A DNA stretch of 43,893 bases from a virus (IMGVR_UViG_3300045284_000173:1-43893); one strand, 5' to 3'. Shown: positions 9,959-43,178, numbered from the stretch's first letter. The notes: generated from the letters alone by a model not told the origin. Program-made: numbers and translations.

Positions 9959-10227
9959 TAGCGCCCCTCATAGGGGCCAATGCCGCCTACCTTCGTATGA
10001 TTAGTCCGCGCATAGTAGGTCGAGACAATCGCAATGAACGCGAAGTTCAGGATCTGAGCATCGATCATTCGGATGGCGCAGAAGATTGCGGCCCCGGTGA
10101 CCATAACCGTTACGATGGCTTGCGTCAATTCCCAAATTACATTGATGCGTCGCTGACCAGCACTCGTCAGGTCTTGTTGGGCTGTCGTATCAGGAGGTAG
10201 GGGCGGGTGGGCAGCCACGTTGTCCAC
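9958..10227 (-). CDS. Two-span membrane protein, holin-like
   Basis: This encodes 89 residues. A soluble N-terminus is followed by two hydrophobic spans (VIWELTQAIVTVMVTGAAIFCAI and NFAFIAIVSTYYA) and a short polar tail with RTNHTKVGG. Size and topology suit a class II-like holin. The phage's lytic peptidase gene lies on the other arm, so the assignment is tentative. It overlaps neuA by 38 bp. Confidence 0.55.
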   Translation of the reverse strand: MDNVAAHPPLPPDTTAQQDLTSAGQRRINVIWELTQAIVTVMVTGAAIFCAIRMIDAQILNFAFIAIVSTYYARTNHTKVGGIGPYEGR

Positions 10228-10855
10228 GGGAAAGCCTCAGTTCAGCAAGCTGCCAATCGAGCGGTGTATCCAAGGGGCAGGATTCCTCGGGTGGGATGAG
10301 TATGAGGTGGGAACCACGTTGGAGAGATGTCAGGGCGGGAAATGCTTTGCGACGGAAGGTATAGACGGTTCCATCACAGCGATAGGTTTTGCGGGCGTCC
10401 TGACGACGTTCAACCGGAATACTTACGGGCAAGAGAACGTCATCAGCGTCGGTGACAAAGTAAAGCTTCTGTACGCTTTCTGTTTCGACGACCGATACCA
10501 CTCGGGGATACTGTTCTGACAACTCAATCGCTTGTGTGAGGTGTTTTGGCTGTCGAAGCGGCTGTGTCGGCTCAACGAGTAAAATGAGTTCATCGGGCGG
10601 TCCATCGACTTGTTGCAGGAAGTGCTCGATGACTAGCCGCATTGGTGTCGTATCTTTTGCGAGTTCGGCCGGTCGCTCCACCCACCATCGCCAATGCTCA
10701 AGGTTTGGCCTATCGGAGCTGACATACGCCTTGATCCCTGCGCCGAAACACGCCGTGACGGCCCGCATGACCGGCGAAATGCCGACGAGCGGTCGAAAAT
10801 TCTTATTGGGAATGCCGTGGCTATGGACGCGAGCCGGGATGAGAGCTATTGGCAT
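10190..10855 (-). CDS. neuA: CMP-sialic acid synthetase (acylneuraminate cytidylyltransferase)
   Basis: This encodes 221 residues, close to the usual length. The nucleotide-binding signature IPARVHSHGIPNKNFRPLVG is at residues 6-25, followed by AYVSSDRP (about 44). LLVEPTQPLRQPKHL (about 92) aligns with the L-x-P-T-x-P-x-R region of the family. YRCDGTVYTFRR near residue 153 contains the D-G/N-x-x-Y element. The enzyme activates a nonulosonic acid with CTP. It overlaps neuC by 10 bp and so is co-translated with it. Legionaminic or pseudaminic acid activation cannot be excluded. Confidence 0.85.
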   Translation of the reverse strand: MPIALIPARVHSHGIPNKNFRPLVGISPVMRAVTACFGAGIKAYVSSDRPNLEHWRWWVERPAELAKDTTPMRLVIEHFLQQVDGPPDELILLVEPTQPLRQPKHLTQAIELSEQYPRVVSVVETESVQKLYFVTDADDVLLPVSIPVERRQDARKTYRCDGTVYTFRRKAFPALTSLQRGSHLILIPPEESCPLDTPLDWQLAELRLSRGQRGCPPAPTS

Positions 10856-11928
10856 AGCAGGTTCTTCAGCTTAGCGGCAATCTTCGGAGCCGCATAGCCA
10901 TCACCATAGAGGGTACTCGGGTGGTATTTGATGATATCGGACCAATTCGGTGGCAGGTCATCCCGTACATTATTCGCCCGCTCTCGCCCACGTTGTCTAT
11001 GCCCGATATTGAACACAGGAGTACCAATGAACGAGCACTCCCTAATACCAGCACTCGAATTACCGACCAAGGCCGTGGTCTGATACATGAGCCGAAGGAA
11101 CCGCTCAGGAGGCAGGGTCCGAACCGTTCGTAGGGGAGCGTGCGCCTTGATGACCCGAATGGCCTTACTGGCCTCCTCCATGCCTGCGTCCTGACCGGGC
11201 CAGAAGACGACCAAGGGAATCTGATAGTCCTTCAACCGCGAAATGAGCGTGAAGGTATCGTTTCCAGCTAACTCGGGACGTTCGGTTTCAGGATGGTAGA
11301 GGACGGTCAGGAAGGGTTTGGAGAGGTCTATTGATGGACCCTCACCGCCCAATTCCTGGTCTGTAACCGGGGGAAGGTTAGCCGCCTGACGAGCTACATC
11401 GATGGACGGACACCCCCAAGGATATACCGGCAAACCGGTCATATCAAAGACACGTTCTGCCGCCTTGAGGGTGGCCGGGAAATGGTAATCCGCCAACATC
11501 GTATTAGCGTTCCGGACTTTATCGTCAATATTCCCGCTAACTTCCCCACCCTGTAGGTGGGCAATCGGAACATTCTGGTAACTGGCCGCGATACTGACCC
11601 CTAGGGTTTCGTGTCGATCAGCCATGACCACGACCATTTGCGGTTCGCGAACTGCGAATTCCCGACCAATCCCTTGACTGAGTGTAGCTGTAGACAACAC
11701 ACTCGTCAACCGTGTATCGCCTTCATACACAGAAGGCACATGAATCCGTTTAAGTTGTGGAAAATCCTGCTCAATCTGGGTCGAAACCTGCCCATAACGG
11801 GGCAATAAGGCCGACGCACAGACATAGAGATCCGGTTCGACCCCTATACTCAACAGAGTGTTGACTAAGGGCTTGATTTTCGCATAAGACGGCCGAGCGG
11901 TGACGACAATGCCGAGGTTACTTCGCAT
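10846..11928 (-). CDS. neuC: UDP-N-acetylglucosamine 2-epimerase, hydrolysing type
   Basis: This encodes 360 residues from ATG 11928, preferred over a TTG at 11946 because it has a GGTGGGA ribosome-binding site and overlaps the neuB stop. Landmarks are VVTARPSYAKIKPL at the start, VMADRHETL (about 99), HLQGGEVSGNIDDKVRNA (about 125) and YHPETERPE (about 212). GNSSAGIRECSFIGTPVFNIG (about 290) is the UDP-binding C-terminal signature. This is full length for the hydrolysing epimerase that makes ManNAc from UDP-GlcNAc. A LegG-type epimerase using a UDP-bacillosamine derivative is the main alternative. It is the middle gene of the cassette neuB-neuC-neuA. Confidence 0.9.
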   Translation of the reverse strand: MRSNLGIVVTARPSYAKIKPLVNTLLSIGVEPDLYVCASALLPRYGQVSTQIEQDFPQLKRIHVPSVYEGDTRLTSVLSTATLSQGIGREFAVREPQMVVVMADRHETLGVSIAASYQNVPIAHLQGGEVSGNIDDKVRNANTMLADYHFPATLKAAERVFDMTGLPVYPWGCPSIDVARQAANLPPVTDQELGGEGPSIDLSKPFLTVLYHPETERPELAGNDTFTLISRLKDYQIPLVVFWPGQDAGMEEASKAIRVIKAHAPLRTVRTLPPERFLRLMYQTTALVGNSSAGIRECSFIGTPVFNIGHRQRGRERANNVRDDLPPNWSDIIKYHPSTLYGDGYAAPKIAAKLKNLLCQ

Positions 11929-12622
11929 GGTCCCACCGTCCGACAAACCGCTTGGGGTCCTGGTCGGCCCACTGCCGCAGCGCCTGAATCTCCTCTACCG
12001 TCGCTTCCCACGGGGAAGGAGTTCGGGCCTGGGTCTTCAGTTGAACATGTTTTTCGACAATCTGTGCGCCCAGCGTGATGGCCGTCATACAGCCGTCCAA
12101 TCCCACACAGTGGTCGGACCAGCCGTCCGCGAAGTATTCGAGGAGTTTGGACGCCACCAAGTTGGCTGGGTGGGGGTATCGGCTAATGCACGCAAGGAGC
12201 TTGGCGTCCATCGACCGATAGACGCCGCTTGGCGGTAGAACCCCATTACTGACGAGCACCCGCGAGAAGTCAGCCGACTTGATCTGATCGGCCAGCTTCG
12301 TACTGTGAGCCTCCCCACTCCCGACCTTCACCTGATTCGTTAGCCCTCGCACGGCCAATACGTCATCCGGATGGTAGACCGTAAGCAAAAAGTTTTTGCC
12401 CAACGTGTAGACGTATTCAGAGAGGTCATGAAAGTCCCTGTCTGAAAACTCGGCCTTCGCAAACCAGTCGTATTGAGGGTCCGTTCGCGCCAGTCGCTTA
12501 TACCTCGTATACTGGAACTTGATGGTGTCCGCGCCCGCCTTCGCAAAGGCATCCACAAACTGGATGGCGCGGCCGAGCGAACCCCCGTGATTTGTCGCCA
12601 CTTCCGCGATAATTTCGACCAT
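11918..12622 (-). CDS. neuB: N-acetylneuraminate synthase, catalytic domain only
   Basis: This encodes 234 residues with a GAGGGA ribosome-binding site. The TIM-barrel signatures are IIAEVATNHGGSL (about 4), GADTIKFQ (about 30), VKVGSGEA (about 97), VLVSNG (about 121) and SDHCVG ... GAQIVEKHVQL (about 168-198). The two metal-binding histidines (SDH and EKH) are kept. Family members usually run to about 340 residues with a C-terminal SAF (antifreeze-like) domain; that domain is absent and the PDH motif after EKH is altered. The enzyme condenses PEP with ManNAc or a related 2-acetamido sugar. It is the first enzyme gene of the cassette. Confidence 0.85.
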   Translation of the reverse strand: MVEIIAEVATNHGGSLGRAIQFVDAFAKAGADTIKFQYTRYKRLARTDPQYDWFAKAEFSDRDFHDLSEYVYTLGKNFLLTVYHPDDVLAVRGLTNQVKVGSGEAHSTKLADQIKSADFSRVLVSNGVLPPSGVYRSMDAKLLACISRYPHPANLVASKLLEYFADGWSDHCVGLDGCMTAITLGAQIVEKHVQLKTQARTPSPWEATVEEIQALRQWADQDPKRFVGRWDHAK

Positions 12623-16340: not shown

Positions 16341-16700
16341 TTACTTCACAACCCCTTCGTAGAGGTATTGATGCTTGCCGAATCCCAGGAACCGAGCGAG
16401 ACGATCCGTGATCGTAGGACGGCCCATATAGAGGTGCGTGCCGGGGGCACAGAGCGACATGACCTGCGAGAGTAATGATACCCATAGAGTTGAACCACGA
16501 TAGGAGGGATCGACCCAGATCGGTTCGACGAACGGGGTCATCTGGAGGGTCGCAAACCCCCGAAGATAACCGTCCTCTTCGGCTACGACAATCTGCGCGA
16601 GTCCCGGATGTGGACGAGGCTTCTTGTTTTCTCTACAAACAGCAAAAATCTGGTCCCACTCATCGACTGGCAGCACCCGATACGTCACTTGCCGCCCCAC
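16341..16700 (-). CDS. GNAT-like acetyltransferase, small
   Basis: This encodes 119 residues from a GTG start overlapping the upstream gene. The order IVVAEEDGYLRGFATLQMTPFVEPIWVDPSYRG fits the GNAT beta4 - V-x-P-x-Y-R-G pattern that binds acetyl-CoA, here V-D-P-S-Y-R-G-S. The N- and C-terminal arms are short, so this is a minimal or partial GNAT fold. Phages sometimes carry such genes among virion genes; the substrate is unknown. Confidence 0.5.
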   Translation of the reverse strand: MGRQVTYRVLPVDEWDQIFAVCRENKKPRPHPGLAQIVVAEEDGYLRGFATLQMTPFVEPIWVDPSYRGSTLWVSLLSQVMSLCAPGTHLYMGRPTITDRLARFLGFGKHQYLYEGVVK

Positions 16701-16882: not shown

Positions 16883-17512
16883 TCACTCAAAGAAGCGTTC
16901 GAGAAGTTGATGGGTAGTTTGGAAGGCCGTCCCGCCCGCAATCGGCGCGCAAGGTTTAGTCCCAAAACCGAGTTGCACGACGCTGACGATATCGCCGTCC
17001 TTATTAAGAATGGGTGAGCCGCTTGCGCCCGCACAAATACTAAGATTGAACAGGTCCCGAATCTGACCCTCATCACTGACTTTCGTACTATCCGACACCA
17101 TATAACCACGTACGAATTGAAGCTTTGTGAAAGCCAATGGGAAGCCAAACGAATGAACCTCGTCTCCGACCTCTGGACTGACGGTCGCCAACTTCAGTGC
17201 AGTGACTCTCAGACCCGGAGTAATAAGGACTGCCAGGTCTTCCATTCCGTTCTGCCAGATCACGGTTGCTGGATAGAATGGATGATCGGGGTCCGAACGA
17301 TCTTCGACCTCGACCGGGCCATTCTGGACGCAATGGTTCGCGGTCAACCACAGACCAATCTTGCCATTAATCGAGCTGGTCGTACAAATTTGTGAGTGGG
17401 GTACGTCGGCTTGTTCAACAAGCCACAAAGGCCGAATCGAGATATTCGGACTCGCCCCCACGTAGATAACCGACCCTAACACGAACGCCAACCCCAGCAT
17501 CCATTGTTTCAT
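16883..17512 (-). CDS. Exported trypsin-like serine protease
   Basis: The start is placed at ATG 17512, which overlaps the previous stop and begins a signal peptide (MKQWMLGLAFVLGSVIYVGA, cut near ASP). The catalytic triad of the S1/trypsin-like fold is visible: His in LTANHCV (about 58), Asp in GMEDLAVLI (about 90) and Ser in CAGASGSPIL (about 168). 209 residues match a single compact protease domain. The position among virion genes together with a signal peptide is unusual: it could process surface proteins of the host, act in lysis, or be carried in the virion. Confidence 0.8.
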   Translation of the reverse strand: MKQWMLGLAFVLGSVIYVGASPNISIRPLWLVEQADVPHSQICTTSSINGKIGLWLTANHCVQNGPVEVEDRSDPDHPFYPATVIWQNGMEDLAVLITPGLRVTALKLATVSPEVGDEVHSFGFPLAFTKLQFVRGYMVSDSTKVSDEGQIRDLFNLSICAGASGSPILNKDGDIVSVVQLGFGTKPCAPIAGGTAFQTTHQLLERFFE

Positions 17513-17715
17513 GAGGTCCCCACATTCGCAGCTGTAATGAGTTGTGCCCAAGCATTACTGATATCGCTCGTCCCGACGTTCGGGGCCTTGAGGAATCGTT
17601 GTAAGAGAGGAGCGAGGTCCGCATTAGTCGTGCCGTACAGCGCATTCAGGTAATCCCGCATAGCCGTATTCATGTCGGCACTCTGGGTTTTAAAGTTATC
17701 AGAGGTGTTTGCCAT
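17509..17715 (-). CDS. Small protein, paralogue of the adjacent 79-residue gene
   Basis: This encodes 68 residues. The core DMNTAMRDYLNALYGTTNADL ... LLQRFL, then DISNAWAQLITAA, aligns with the neighbour at 17715-17954. The ATGA overlap with the protease gene and the coupled start (17715) place it in the same translation unit. Likely a duplicated helical virion-associated protein; no function recognised. Confidence 0.6.
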   Translation of the reverse strand: MANTSDNFKTQSADMNTAMRDYLNALYGTTNADLAPLLQRFLKAPNVGTSDISNAWAQLITAANVGTS

Positions 17716-26440: not shown

Positions 26441-26761
26441 TTAGATAGCCGTGTTAAGTTCGCTGATCGCTGAGGTTTGAGAAGTACCTGAGGTCCAATA
26501 CGGCGAGGTTGCAGTCGTTGGTTGTCCAAACCAATCCCCACTTGATGTCGCTCCACCCATTCCCAAGTCCAGTTCTACAACTCGATTAGCCGTATACGAA
26601 CTATTCACGCAGTCGGCACTCACACCAAGACACTCAGCCGACTCCTTAGTCGTCGAATCGCCAGGAGTTCCGGCCCCCGCGATCACTCGCTCAAACCCAG
26701 CCGCCGAACCGGCCGCAATATTATCATACCCAAGACGCTTACTTTTGAGTGTGTAGGCCAT
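26441..26761 (-). CDS. Small beta-rich head protein
   Basis: The start is placed at ATG 26761, which overlaps the upstream stop (TAATG) and leaves 106 residues; a GTG-type start further up would overlap needlessly. The N-terminus AYTLKSKRLGYDNIAAGSAAGF is followed by Thr/Ser/Gly strands. It may be a head decoration or stopper protein; the sequence is not distinctive. Confidence 0.5.
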   Translation of the reverse strand: MAYTLKSKRLGYDNIAAGSAAGFERVIAGAGTPGDSTTKESAECLGVSADCVNSSYTANRVVELDLGMGGATSSGDWFGQPTTATSPYWTSGTSQTSAISELNTAI

Positions 26762-27582
26762 TACTTTCCGTCCTTCCACGGACCTTTTTTATGATCCGGC
26801 AATACCATATCCGACATAGGCGGCTCCATAAGTTTGGGAGCATTCAGCCCATCTGCCGGAAGTAACTGAATATTGTTATTCAGCCCACTTGGGTTAATTC
26901 GTGTCACACCTGGTCCTATCGTAAAGGAATAGGAGGGGTCGCGGACTCCGTTGGGGTGCGATTCATACCCATAGAGCAAAGATGGCCGATTAAGGAGGTC
27001 ACACCCAGGAGGAATAAGAACGTGTACTCCCCGCCCTTCAGCCACGCCCAACCAATACTCAGCAGACCCACGCTGAGGACCATATTCAGACCCCGCATCA
27101 TAGTGACAACCGAAGATCCCGATATGGGTGACCCCCTCCATGAGCGCAAGAGGAATCATATAGGAAAGGGTATTAGTGTGGTACCCTCGGGGAAATTCCG
27201 TCACCATCGACTCAAACGGATACTTGATACTTGTAGGGGCATCAGGATACTTTTGCTGCATCATGATGGGCGTATGAGTCGCCTTCAGCCATGCAGGATA
27301 TCGAGGGTCCCAGAACTTCTTATCCGCATCCCGCCATAATTCTGGAGGATGCAGATCGAACAAAAGGTCTGGTTCTCGCCCACACTGATGCCGACACGAA
27401 TGATGGGACCAAATTTCCCATGTGGGGTCATCCCACGGCACATGACGAATCGTGCCCGCTCCACCGACCATCGCAATCTTACGCAATCGTCCAACCCCGG
27501 CAAACACAGGACGACGCGGAACAAGCGGACGAGGCGTATATTCGCTCATCGCCCGCGTGAGCGGAAACCGTTGCTTCTTCAT
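26761..27582 (-). CDS. Rossmann-like protein with MptE/GT42-reminiscent features
   Basis: This encodes 273 residues. The core starts with KIAMVGGAGTIRHVPWDDPTWEIW (split by a turn), then DLLFDLHPPELW. TNTLSYMIPLALMEGVTHIG and IFGCHYDAGSEYGPQRGSAEYW follow, with a C-terminal LLYGYESHP. The N-terminal G-x-G nucleotide loop and the S-x-M-x-x-L-A-L ... G-x-I-x-I-x-G-x-x-x segment resemble the DUF115/MptE and CstII-type sialyltransferase fold. I recognise the FGCHYDAGSEY-QRGSAEYWLG pattern from unnamed phage proteins, so it is not unique to phages with neu genes. Possible glycan or nucleotide-sugar enzyme; function unproven. Confidence 0.4.
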   Translation of the reverse strand: MKKQRFPLTRAMSEYTPRPLVPRRPVFAGVGRLRKIAMVGGAGTIRHVPWDDPTWEIWSHHSCRHQCGREPDLLFDLHPPELWRDADKKFWDPRYPAWLKATHTPIMMQQKYPDAPTSIKYPFESMVTEFPRGYHTNTLSYMIPLALMEGVTHIGIFGCHYDAGSEYGPQRGSAEYWLGVAEGRGVHVLIPPGCDLLNRPSLLYGYESHPNGVRDPSYSFTIGPGVTRINPSGLNNNIQLLPADGLNAPKLMEPPMSDMVLPDHKKGPWKDGK

Positions 27583-27639: not shown

Positions 27640-28380
27640 TTACGTCGTGCCAGCGCCCAGAACCATCGCGTTACCGTCGCACCACGGATAGTTCAGGAAG
27701 ACCGCATACGTTTGACCAATAAAGGCTGACGTATTGTCACCGCTGGTTTTGCCGAAGAACGTGCCCACGCTCACCGGACCCGACGTATCGCTGACTGATG
27801 CGCCAAACTGTGCGACAGTCGGCACCGTGAAGGCCGAGCCAGCCGCCGTGCCCAGATTCGACACCTGAGTCGGAGGCAGGACCCACAGACCCCAAATACG
27901 AGGAGAATCAGTGCTCGTGATCTCGATAGACGTGCCTGCGACCGCCGTAATCAGACTGAAGGTCCCACTGGGGGTGCCCACCGAAGTCTGAGCGACCGCA
28001 AAGTACTCGACCGTGCCGTCCGATGCCAGACCACCGGATGCGCTGCCGGTCTGGGCAGCATAGAACATCCCGTAAATCTGAACCCAACCACCCTTGGTGG
28101 TATCACCGTGCAGGGCGTTATTCGACACAGCCTGTCCACCGCATACAATCCCCACACGATAGGGATCGCGTGCCGTGCCGAGCAATGCTGAGGCCGTATA
28201 GTCAGCCGTAATCTGGACCAACGTTCCGACATAGACATTCCCCGTGAACGACACAAAGAGGTACTCGTTACCATCCTTGTCTCGACCCTTATCCCCCGGC
28301 CTGTGCGGGAAGGGCGTGGTATAAAACTCCGACGTATTGCCCGCGAAGCCCATTGCTCCGGGGCCAGCCAAGGTGCTCAT
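27640..28380 (-). CDS. Capsid-associated beta-rich protein (decoration type)
   Basis: This encodes 246 residues. It is beta-rich with DKGRDKDGNEYLFVSFTGNVYVG at the start, DPYRVGIVCGG and VQIYGMFYAA, and ends in WCDGNAMVLGAG. It lies immediately after the major capsid gene and before a terminator. Position and fold suggest a head decoration or minor head protein (DUF2190-like in role). A GGAAAGGATTC ribosome-binding site supports strong expression. Confidence 0.6.
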   Translation of the reverse strand: MSTLAGPGAMGFAGNTSEFYTTPFPHRPGDKGRDKDGNEYLFVSFTGNVYVGTLVQITADYTASALLGTARDPYRVGIVCGGQAVSNNALHGDTTKGGWVQIYGMFYAAQTGSASGGLASDGTVEYFAVAQTSVGTPSGTFSLITAVAGTSIEITSTDSPRIWGLWVLPPTQVSNLGTAAGSAFTVPTVAQFGASVSDTSGPVSVGTFFGKTSGDNTSAFIGQTYAVFLNYPWCDGNAMVLGAGTT

Positions 28381-28435: not shown

Positions 28436-29413
28436 TTAGGTGATGGCCGTCACGACACCCAGCATACGCCGGTTGGTCGTAATGAGGTTGCAGCGTGCCG
28501 ACACCTGATAGATGTCAACAGTCTGGTTGGCGGGACGAATCGGACCCGTCATCTTGTACCAATGTCCCTTGAGATAGGCAAGCTTCAAGAACTGGGGATG
28601 ATACATATACATCAGACCCGAAGGCACCGCGATATCGTAGCTAATGGCCGACGCCTTGAACTTCAGAACCTCATTCTTGAAGCCACCATCACCGGACGAC
28701 TTGTCAGTGAATCGCTCGTTGACCGTCAGTAGACCTTCGAACCCCTGGAATACGGTCTGGGTGGTCGTGATATACTGAGGATGTTTGCCAGACATGCCAT
28801 TGCTGGACGAGTTATAGATCGACCGCATGGTTGCACGCAGGTTATCGAACGCCGAACTCGACTGTGCACCACTTGCCTGCTGGTTGCGCCAGAAGGAGAA
28901 GTTGGCCGCATTGATCGAGCCGACTGTGCCAGTCGTCGGAGTCGAAGAAATCAGGAGTTGCAGACCACCCAATTCCTTGCCGCCCGTCCCAGATCCGTCC
29001 GAATACAACGACGTATTGATGACGGAATCCAGCGTGGACCGCAGGTTCTTCAACTTGCCATCCAGTAGATCAAACTTTTTGGCCGAACCCTGAACAACAC
29101 CGTTCTCCAGTTCCGACTGAAGCACGGTGCCTGCGACTTCCTTCCAGGCAAATTCTGCCCGGTCGAACACTTCAGAACGCTGCGTCGAGATCGTCTCGGT
29201 GTCTGAATAAAACCCAACAGTCCCGTTGAGCGCATACTCCAGACTGGCCGTAATGACATCGCCACCATCCACGCTCATGAAGGACTCGCCCTTCTTCAGC
29301 GTGTTCAACAGCCAATAATCATTAAAGATGTTATCCTCGGGCTTGTCATTGACCAGGGCATTCCATGCCGCAGCCACGATCATCCCGTCATTCGGAACGT
29401 TTACAGGAGACAT
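28436..29413 (-). CDS. Major capsid protein, HK97-type
   Basis: This encodes 325 residues. It follows the scaffold gene by 18 bases and precedes the decoration gene. Features are an N-terminal segment (NDGMIVAAAWNALVNDKPED), a long spine helix region (FDRAEFAWKEVAGTVLQSELENG) and, late in the chain, PSGLMYMYHPQFLKLAYLKG, the pattern of P22/HK97-like capsid proteins of podoviruses. The order terL - portal - scaffold - capsid supports the call. Confidence 0.8.
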   Translation of the reverse strand: MSPVNVPNDGMIVAAAWNALVNDKPEDNIFNDYWLLNTLKKGESFMSVDGGDVITASLEYALNGTVGFYSDTETISTQRSEVFDRAEFAWKEVAGTVLQSELENGVVQGSAKKFDLLDGKLKNLRSTLDSVINTSLYSDGSGTGGKELGGLQLLISSTPTTGTVGSINAANFSFWRNQQASGAQSSSAFDNLRATMRSIYNSSSNGMSGKHPQYITTTQTVFQGFEGLLTVNERFTDKSSGDGGFKNEVLKFKASAISYDIAVPSGLMYMYHPQFLKLAYLKGHWYKMTGPIRPANQTVDIYQVSARCNLITTNRRMLGVVTAIT

Positions 29414-42912: not shown

Positions 42913-43178
42913 CGTTGAAAGAACGGTTTGACCAATACGAGAACGAATATCTGTTGTATCGGGAGGCGGGCCGACCGGACCTCAACGCCTTTTATCTTCT
43001 CGATAAGCTGATACCAGGCACGGAAGATATGATTAATGGGGCGGAACACGACGAATACTACCTATCGGTGTCACCCGAGGTCCTGCATCAGGTTGCCTCT
43101 GACGAGGACATTTTGTTTCTCGTTCGATGCGGGGTTCGCTATGACGAAGACGTAGACTCCTTGGCCTTGTATGCGTAA
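42909..43178 (+). CDS. Small hypothetical protein after the helicase
   Basis: This encodes 89 residues with an ATGA overlap to the helicase gene. Acidic helical: LKERFDQYENEYLLYREAGR, AFYLLDKLIPGTEDMINGAE, then ASDEDILFLVRCGVRYDED. No family recognised. It ends 57 bp before the array gene. Confidence 0.55.
   Translation: MTLKERFDQYENEYLLYREAGRPDLNAFYLLDKLIPGTEDMINGAEHDEYYLSVSPEVLHQVASDEDILFLVRCGVRYDEDVDSLALYA

Follow-up and report, generated by a model that had tools for sequence, protein, structure and literature searches.

The neuB-neuC-neuA cassette and its genomic setting

The window, that is the whole stretch of DNA analysed, is an entire IMG/VR virus record of 43,893 bases. Homologues of neuB, neuC and neuA span positions 10190-12622 on the minus strand, where they are co-directional and overlapping and terminate the leftward virion arm. 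The features discussed below are as follows:

10190-10855, minus strand: neuA-like gene, 221 aa; predicted CMP-nonulosonate synthetase (Pfam CTP_transf_3)
10846-11946, minus strand: neuC-like gene, 366 aa from TTG; predicted hydrolysing UDP-GlcNAc 2-epimerase (NCBIfam NeuC_NnaA)
11918-12622, minus strand: neuB-like gene, 234 aa; predicted SAF-less nonulosonate synthase (Pfam NeuB)
11933-11959, minus strand: NeuB C-terminal motif DPKRFVGRW, with invariant R229 and W230
26761-27582, minus strand: p26761, candidate nonulosonyl/sialyl-transferase with a GT42/Maf-like fold
27640-28380, minus strand: p27640, head-decoration-like, directly upstream of p26761; candidate acceptor
28436-29413, minus strand: major capsid protein (MCP), phrog_9953 major head protein (1.2e-46); alternative candidate acceptor

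The sequence upstream of neuB is GAGAGGGA. At 55.7%, the GC content of the cassette differs little from that of the window as a whole (54.4%), so that a recent horizontal transfer is not suggested. Viral contigs were scanned with NeuC and NeuB and the loci annotated by HMM; about 20 distinct phage contigs from IMG/VR showed the conserved B-C-A order. Because three genes recur in an identical order across so many contigs, the cassette is not a chance arrangement. Most of these contigs have TerL, portal and capsid proteins in common with the window; the remainder are fragments missing the TerL-portal-capsid region, or are more distant. The cassette occupies three sites: upstream of TerL, between the portal and scaffold genes, and at the far end of the virion arm (the window and L001/G001). 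In a distant set of loci (L023-L031), the NeuBs are mostly longer and a SAF domain was found in both proteins tested. Cultured phages gave weak NeuB and NeuC matches only, and no PHROGs match was obtained for NeuA, NeuB or p26761.

Open reading frames, protein families and recurrence agree with an earlier note on this DNA, which described a complete, overlapping and co-oriented neuB-neuC-neuA set at the end of the virion arm of a short-tailed phage. TerL, portal, major capsid, tail and internal-virion-type proteins were identified, and no sheath or tape-measure match was found among the proteins scanned. The lack of such a match is compatible with a short tail.

The contig ends (1-470 and 43650-43893) share one G-rich (GGC/GGN)n tract with an identical stretch of 61 bases, so that the assembly break probably lies inside a single low-complexity tract of a genome that is circularly permuted or larger. 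In the closest relative of the window, G001, neuC was found at both contig ends (L050/L052; G001:C1:9-1118 and 42981-43073), an overlap of the ends that points to a complete genome assembled as a circle.

The predicted enzymes of the cassette

All three proteins carry the family signatures that the earlier note had claimed for them, at different levels: NeuC passed an NCBIfam equivalog cut-off, whereas NeuB and NeuA passed Pfam cut-offs but fell short of the NCBIfam equivalog level. NeuC matched NeuC_NnaA (TIGR03568) with 242.7 bits (5.2e-72; equivalog cut-off 235.9) and Pfam Epimerase_2 (3.9e-38), and its best PDB matches were hydrolysing 2-epimerases (human GNE and LegG-type structures). The motifs R-x-S-x-A-K, DRHE, GGE-x-G-x-IDD, H-P-x-T and NSSAG-x-RE are largely kept, in comparison with GNE (4zht) and across the phages. 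The true start of neuC is probably not the TTG at 11946 but the ATG at 11928, which is preceded by GGTGGGACC.

NeuA matched CTP_transf_3 (PF02348; 2.5e-8, 34.4 bits against a gathering cut-off of 22.6) and NCBIfam PseF (2.3e-16, 60.1 bits, far below the equivalog cut-off of 205.7), and its best PDB matches were CMP-Neu5Ac synthetases. The N-terminal R...PxKN motif is present (IPARVHSHGIPNKN), and R9, K18, the RRQ motif and D196 (equivalent to D211 of the Neisseria meningitidis (Nm) enzyme) are kept. At the position of the metal-binding Nm D209 the window protein has a proline, and only the D211 equivalent of the pair is retained. The family and PDB matches and the kept residues point to a CMP-nonulosonate synthetase.

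NeuB matched Pfam NeuB (1e-20, above the Pfam cut-off) and NCBIfam NeuB_NnaB (TIGR03569; 89.8 bits, far below the equivalog cut-off of 399.65), and its closest PDB relatives were NeuB-type synthases. The barrel residues E7, K35, Q37, T81, K99 and E104 (Nm E25, K53, Q55, T110, K129 and E134) are kept in the first half of the protein and Y149, S169, H171, E190 and H192 (Nm Y186, S213, H215, E234 and H236) in the second half; the positions of Nm N184 and D247 are changed to Ser and Pro, respectively. The protein ends at residue 234 and a Pfam scan detected no SAF domain in it, while the phage NeuBs of L029 and L025, used as controls for SAF detection, do have this domain. Arg314 of the SAF (antifreeze-like) domain is described as critical for the N. 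meningitidis enzyme (PMC6795526), and a SAF arginine of Caulobacter NeuB was likewise chosen for mutagenesis (PMC7591256); lacking the domain, the phage protein lacks an Arg314 equivalent. The phage NeuB is therefore not of the canonical form.

All intact NeuBs of the lineage, and that of L192, carry a [FYV]-x-x-R-W motif at their C-terminus or close to it; none of the 19 bacterial NeuBs sampled has it. A phylogeny against bacterial neu genes, as the earlier note had proposed, was run for NeuB: the lineage proteins form one deep separate group (support 100/98) that includes neither the bacterial NeuBs, sampled only from Chloroflexota and one Acidobacteria MAG, nor those which other phages obtained by separate acquisition. 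Short SAF-less relatives, measuring about 280 aa from the start of the barrel, are present in phages and probably in bacteria too, and the PDB entry 6ncs holds a NeuB-type chain of 290 residues.

The cassette resembles the bacterial NeuB-NeuC-NeuA pathway (N. meningitidis SiaC/SiaA/SiaB) in its three reactions, as assigned by family, in their order of use and in most catalytic residues. It differs in the missing SAF domain and Arg314 and the distinct C-terminus of NeuB, in the scores of NeuB and NeuA below equivalog cut-offs, and in being carried in a virion arm. The earlier note had regarded catalytic loss in at least two of the enzymes as evidence against its reading; the absence of the NeuB SAF domain and of one NeuA aspartate goes part of the way towards such a loss and does not clearly amount to it. 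Gene families, conserved catalytic residues and recurrence support the proposal that the phage would make its own CMP-activated nonulosonate.

p26761 and its association with the cassette

The earlier note had left the transferase open, seeing none in the cassette. A strong GT42/Maf-like candidate, p26761, was found outside the region which that note covered, adjoining the capsid genes beside that of the MCP. Its likeness to GT42 was suspected by eye ahead of every test, and the protein is strongly conserved among near relatives (59-68% identity). A first AlphaFold model (pLDDT 63) was superseded by a domain model based on an alignment of 66 sequences (pLDDT 91.5, pTM 0.87). With this domain model, all Foldseek matches in the PDB at E<1e-3 were Cst-II (eight chains), and VIA gave Z 10.8 for Cst-II (151 residues, 3.2 A) and for Cst-I, and Z 10.3 for the Pasteurella multocida GT42 enzyme. 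Thiamine pyrophosphokinase, HPPK and SteA followed at Z 9.7-9.9; since other Rossmann-type folds thus lie within about 1 Z, the fold alone is not decisive for GT42. For the first, weaker model the top VIA match was the Maf glycosyltransferase 5mu5 (Z 9.7), which is not among the matches listed for the second model.

At the sequence level, a p26761 profile placed GT42 enzymes at ranks 1-8 of 177,635 PDB sequences, each weakly (E 0.28-0.8); a 17-sequence profile gave no matches. Weak matches were obtained to Pfam CST-I (PF06002) for three of the 66 family members (best 0.0017) and to Pfam MptE-like (PF01973) for four (best E 0.028); the window protein itself had no match in a Pfam scan, the CST-I gathering cut-off not being reached. 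The catalytic His/Tyr/Asn of Cst-II could not be matched in p26761, and a Tyr pair is offset in the HMM alignment. A likeness to Plexin in a single-sequence PDB search was discarded as noise.

The GT42 enzymes Cst-I, Cst-II and that of P. multocida therefore provide the closest fold and the best, though weak, sequence match; compared with them p26761 is shorter, about 11-16% identical and without a Pfam match, and its catalytic residues are not demonstrably common with theirs. Maf enzymes transfer nonulosonates onto protein (PMC7591256); unlike the Maf flagellin glycosyltransferases and DUF115 proteins, p26761 is a single compact domain, and its sequence link to them is the weak one seen in four of 66 members. 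Model and sequence together make p26761 a candidate GT42/Maf-like transferase.

No GT42 sequence was found in 297 bacterial genomes of the phylum sampled, in which the controls were silent too. In bacterial genomes p26761 was found in three MAG contigs only, one of them binned with an Anaerolineae MAG, and these provide weak hints of the host. Cultured phages gave one match, a Microcystis phage protein annotated as a type 11 methyltransferase. Two phages, G004 and G020, each carry two tandem p26761 paralogues (L009:10377-11875 and L067:3187-4858), which perhaps serve two linkages or acceptors.

All the near-complete cassette-bearing contigs of the lineage that were searched carry p26761; cassette contigs without it are short fragments or members of the distant set. 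A lineage-matched contrast was drawn from an independent capsid-protein scan: among capsid-homologous phages, neuA was present in 9/9 carriers of p26761 (G000, G001, G002, G006, G011, G021, G026, G030 and G032; neuA of G006 from an HMM scan), six of which were originally found via neu genes, and neuA or neuB in 0/11 non-carriers. The Fisher value, calculated by hand and ignoring phylogeny, is 1/167,960 (about 6e-6). On the MCP tree, the joint state of cassette and p26761 changes five times, at least four of them on well-supported branches, and in a phylogeny-corrected test both genes switched together in 4/4 independent pairs (p = 0.125). A single state vector was used for both in this test, because p26761 and the neu genes agree wherever both are known. 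G002 and its sister G353, and G006/G032 and G355, are examples of such joint switches, and p26761 varies between sister phages while the neighbouring virion genes stay. p27640 follows the MCP gene in nearly all relatives, with p26761 present or absent; co-variation of the two was considered and dropped, since an iterated HMM search finds p27640 in non-carriers, and p27640 is thus no marker of the system.

Outside the lineage, a CTP_transf_3 gene was present in 10 of the 14 contigs >35 kb found only via p26761 (some being near-duplicates, and one synthetase being KdsB-like), and none of the three neu genes was found in the carriers G028, G031, G037 and G041, all >35 kb. In two unrelated phages, G043 and G038, p26761 overlaps a PseF/NeuA-type gene (L195:989-2864 and L196:981-3009), and neuB and neuC were not found in the contigs of these loci. 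In G048, G039, G042 and G047, PseB-like dehydratases, aminotransferases or acetyltransferases (GNAT) lie beside neuB/neuA, as in Pse/Leg pathways. One cluster of G048 (L193, G048:C1:34000-42500) holds genes for a PseB-like dehydratase, a LegC/PseC-type aminotransferase and NeuA-, NeuB- and NeuC-like proteins.

Proposed virion decoration and competing explanations

We consider it probable, with moderate confidence, that the phage encodes CMP-nonulosonate synthesis and, with it, a GT42/Maf-like transferase for decorating a virion protein. NeuC would convert host UDP-GlcNAc to ManNAc, the SAF-less NeuB would form a nonulosonic acid by condensing ManNAc and PEP, and this acid would be activated with CTP by NeuA to give the CMP-sugar. 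A soluble p26761, made beside the capsid genes, would then transfer the nonulosonate to a virion protein before release, the acceptor most likely being p27640 or the MCP. The gain would probably be protection of a virion coated with acidic glycan, or its altered adsorption. Of the three uses proposed in the earlier note, virion decoration is favoured because p26761 lies beside the MCP gene and, in lineage-matched phages, strictly co-occurs with the cassette; alteration of the host surface and counter-defence are less favoured. Several observations count against virion decoration: NeuB lacks the SAF domain and with it the arginine reported as key in N. meningitidis (PMC6795526) and is changed at N184 and D247, NeuA has Pro in place of Asp209, p26761 has no Pfam match of its own, no matched GT42 catalytic residues and rival folds that score about 1 Z or less below GT42, no neu gene was found in four carriers >35 kb, and the independent pairs number only four.

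The product of the SAF-less NeuB might not be Neu5Ac but an ulosonic acid that carries other substituents or lacks N-acetylation; the cassette would then not be a sialic-acid pathway in the strict sense, though still feeding p26761, a possibility that shares its mechanism with the favoured explanation and differs in product. The absent SAF domain, the two changed positions, the phage-specific DPQ and RW motifs and the deep separate clade (100/98) speak for it; the equivalog-level assignment of NeuC as a UDP-GlcNAc 2-epimerase, the short SAF-less NeuB relatives elsewhere and the 290-residue chain of 6ncs speak against it, and we regard it as possible but rather unlikely. It is less likely still that the CMP-nonulosonate modifies the host surface (LPS, capsule or flagellin) against superinfection or detection, via p26761 or a host transferase. 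Phage-encoded acetyltransferases do modify host nonulosonate capsules (PMC6586298), and Maf, which led the VIA matches for the first model of p26761, is a flagellin glycosyltransferase; the genes, however, are located in the virion arm, where the inserted p26761 is directly flanked by the head-decoration-like gene on one side and by the following virion gene on the other, and no signal peptide or membrane segment was seen in p26761 (sequence inspection only).

That p26761 is a structural or assembly protein, co-occurring with the cassette by shared ancestry, would fit its high conservation (59-68%) within a head-tail operon, but is improbable given its Rossmann-type enzyme fold, nearest to GT42, and its presence or absence in sister phages whose adjacent virion genes are retained. 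Lowest of all we place an auxiliary or counter-defence role, in which the CMP-sugar or free sialic acid would act as a metabolite, or the sugar would be placed on phage DNA, p26761 being unrelated. DNA glycosylation by phages exists, according to literature cited in PMC12619734; the joint presence and absence of cassette and p26761, and the overlap of p26761 with a CMP-sugar synthetase gene in other phages, argue against such a role here.

Returning to virion decoration, phage transferases are reported to decorate capsid and tail proteins in the mycobacteriophages Che8, Corndog and Myrna (Freeman et al. 2023, cited in PMC12363180 and PMC12619734). As described in these citing papers, only glycosyltransferases are reported there, whereas the window phage would add a donor-sugar pathway and a predicted nonulosonic acid. 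Prophage O-acetyltransferases (PMC6586298) are likewise phage genes acting on nonulosonates, but modify an existing host sugar, without synthesis or a link to the virion. Searches of open-access full text found no account of a phage that couples nonulosonate synthesis of its own to a virion transferase. Transferase-decorated phage capsids are thus known, and a phage with both a CMP-nonulosonate donor pathway and a matching transferase was not found in that text.

More tentatively, and with slightly more doubt than belief, we propose a general form of this explanation: many unrelated phages would carry out self-contained virion sialylation, combining a full de novo CMP-nonulosonate pathway (Neu-, Leg- or Pse-like) with a new, almost virus-only compact GT42/Maf-like family, capsid-adjacent in this lineage; here NeuB would also have shed a SAF domain thought necessary for catalysis, and may rely on its invariant C-terminal Arg in its place. 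If true, phages would coat their particles with a sialic-acid-like sugar independently of any host pathway, which would bear on phage adsorption, on clearance by animal immune systems and on the spread of sialic acid in microbial communities, and compact new sialyltransferases would be on offer. The lineage NeuB would in addition be a natural test of whether NeuB works without a SAF domain.

Two further genes of the window were recorded. A trypsin-like protease gene (16883-17551, minus strand; Trypsin_2, 1.2e-14) lies in the virion arm. A small GNAT acetyltransferase gene (16341-16700, minus strand) is conserved in G013 as well as in L001; its product might act on the sugar or have an unrelated role.
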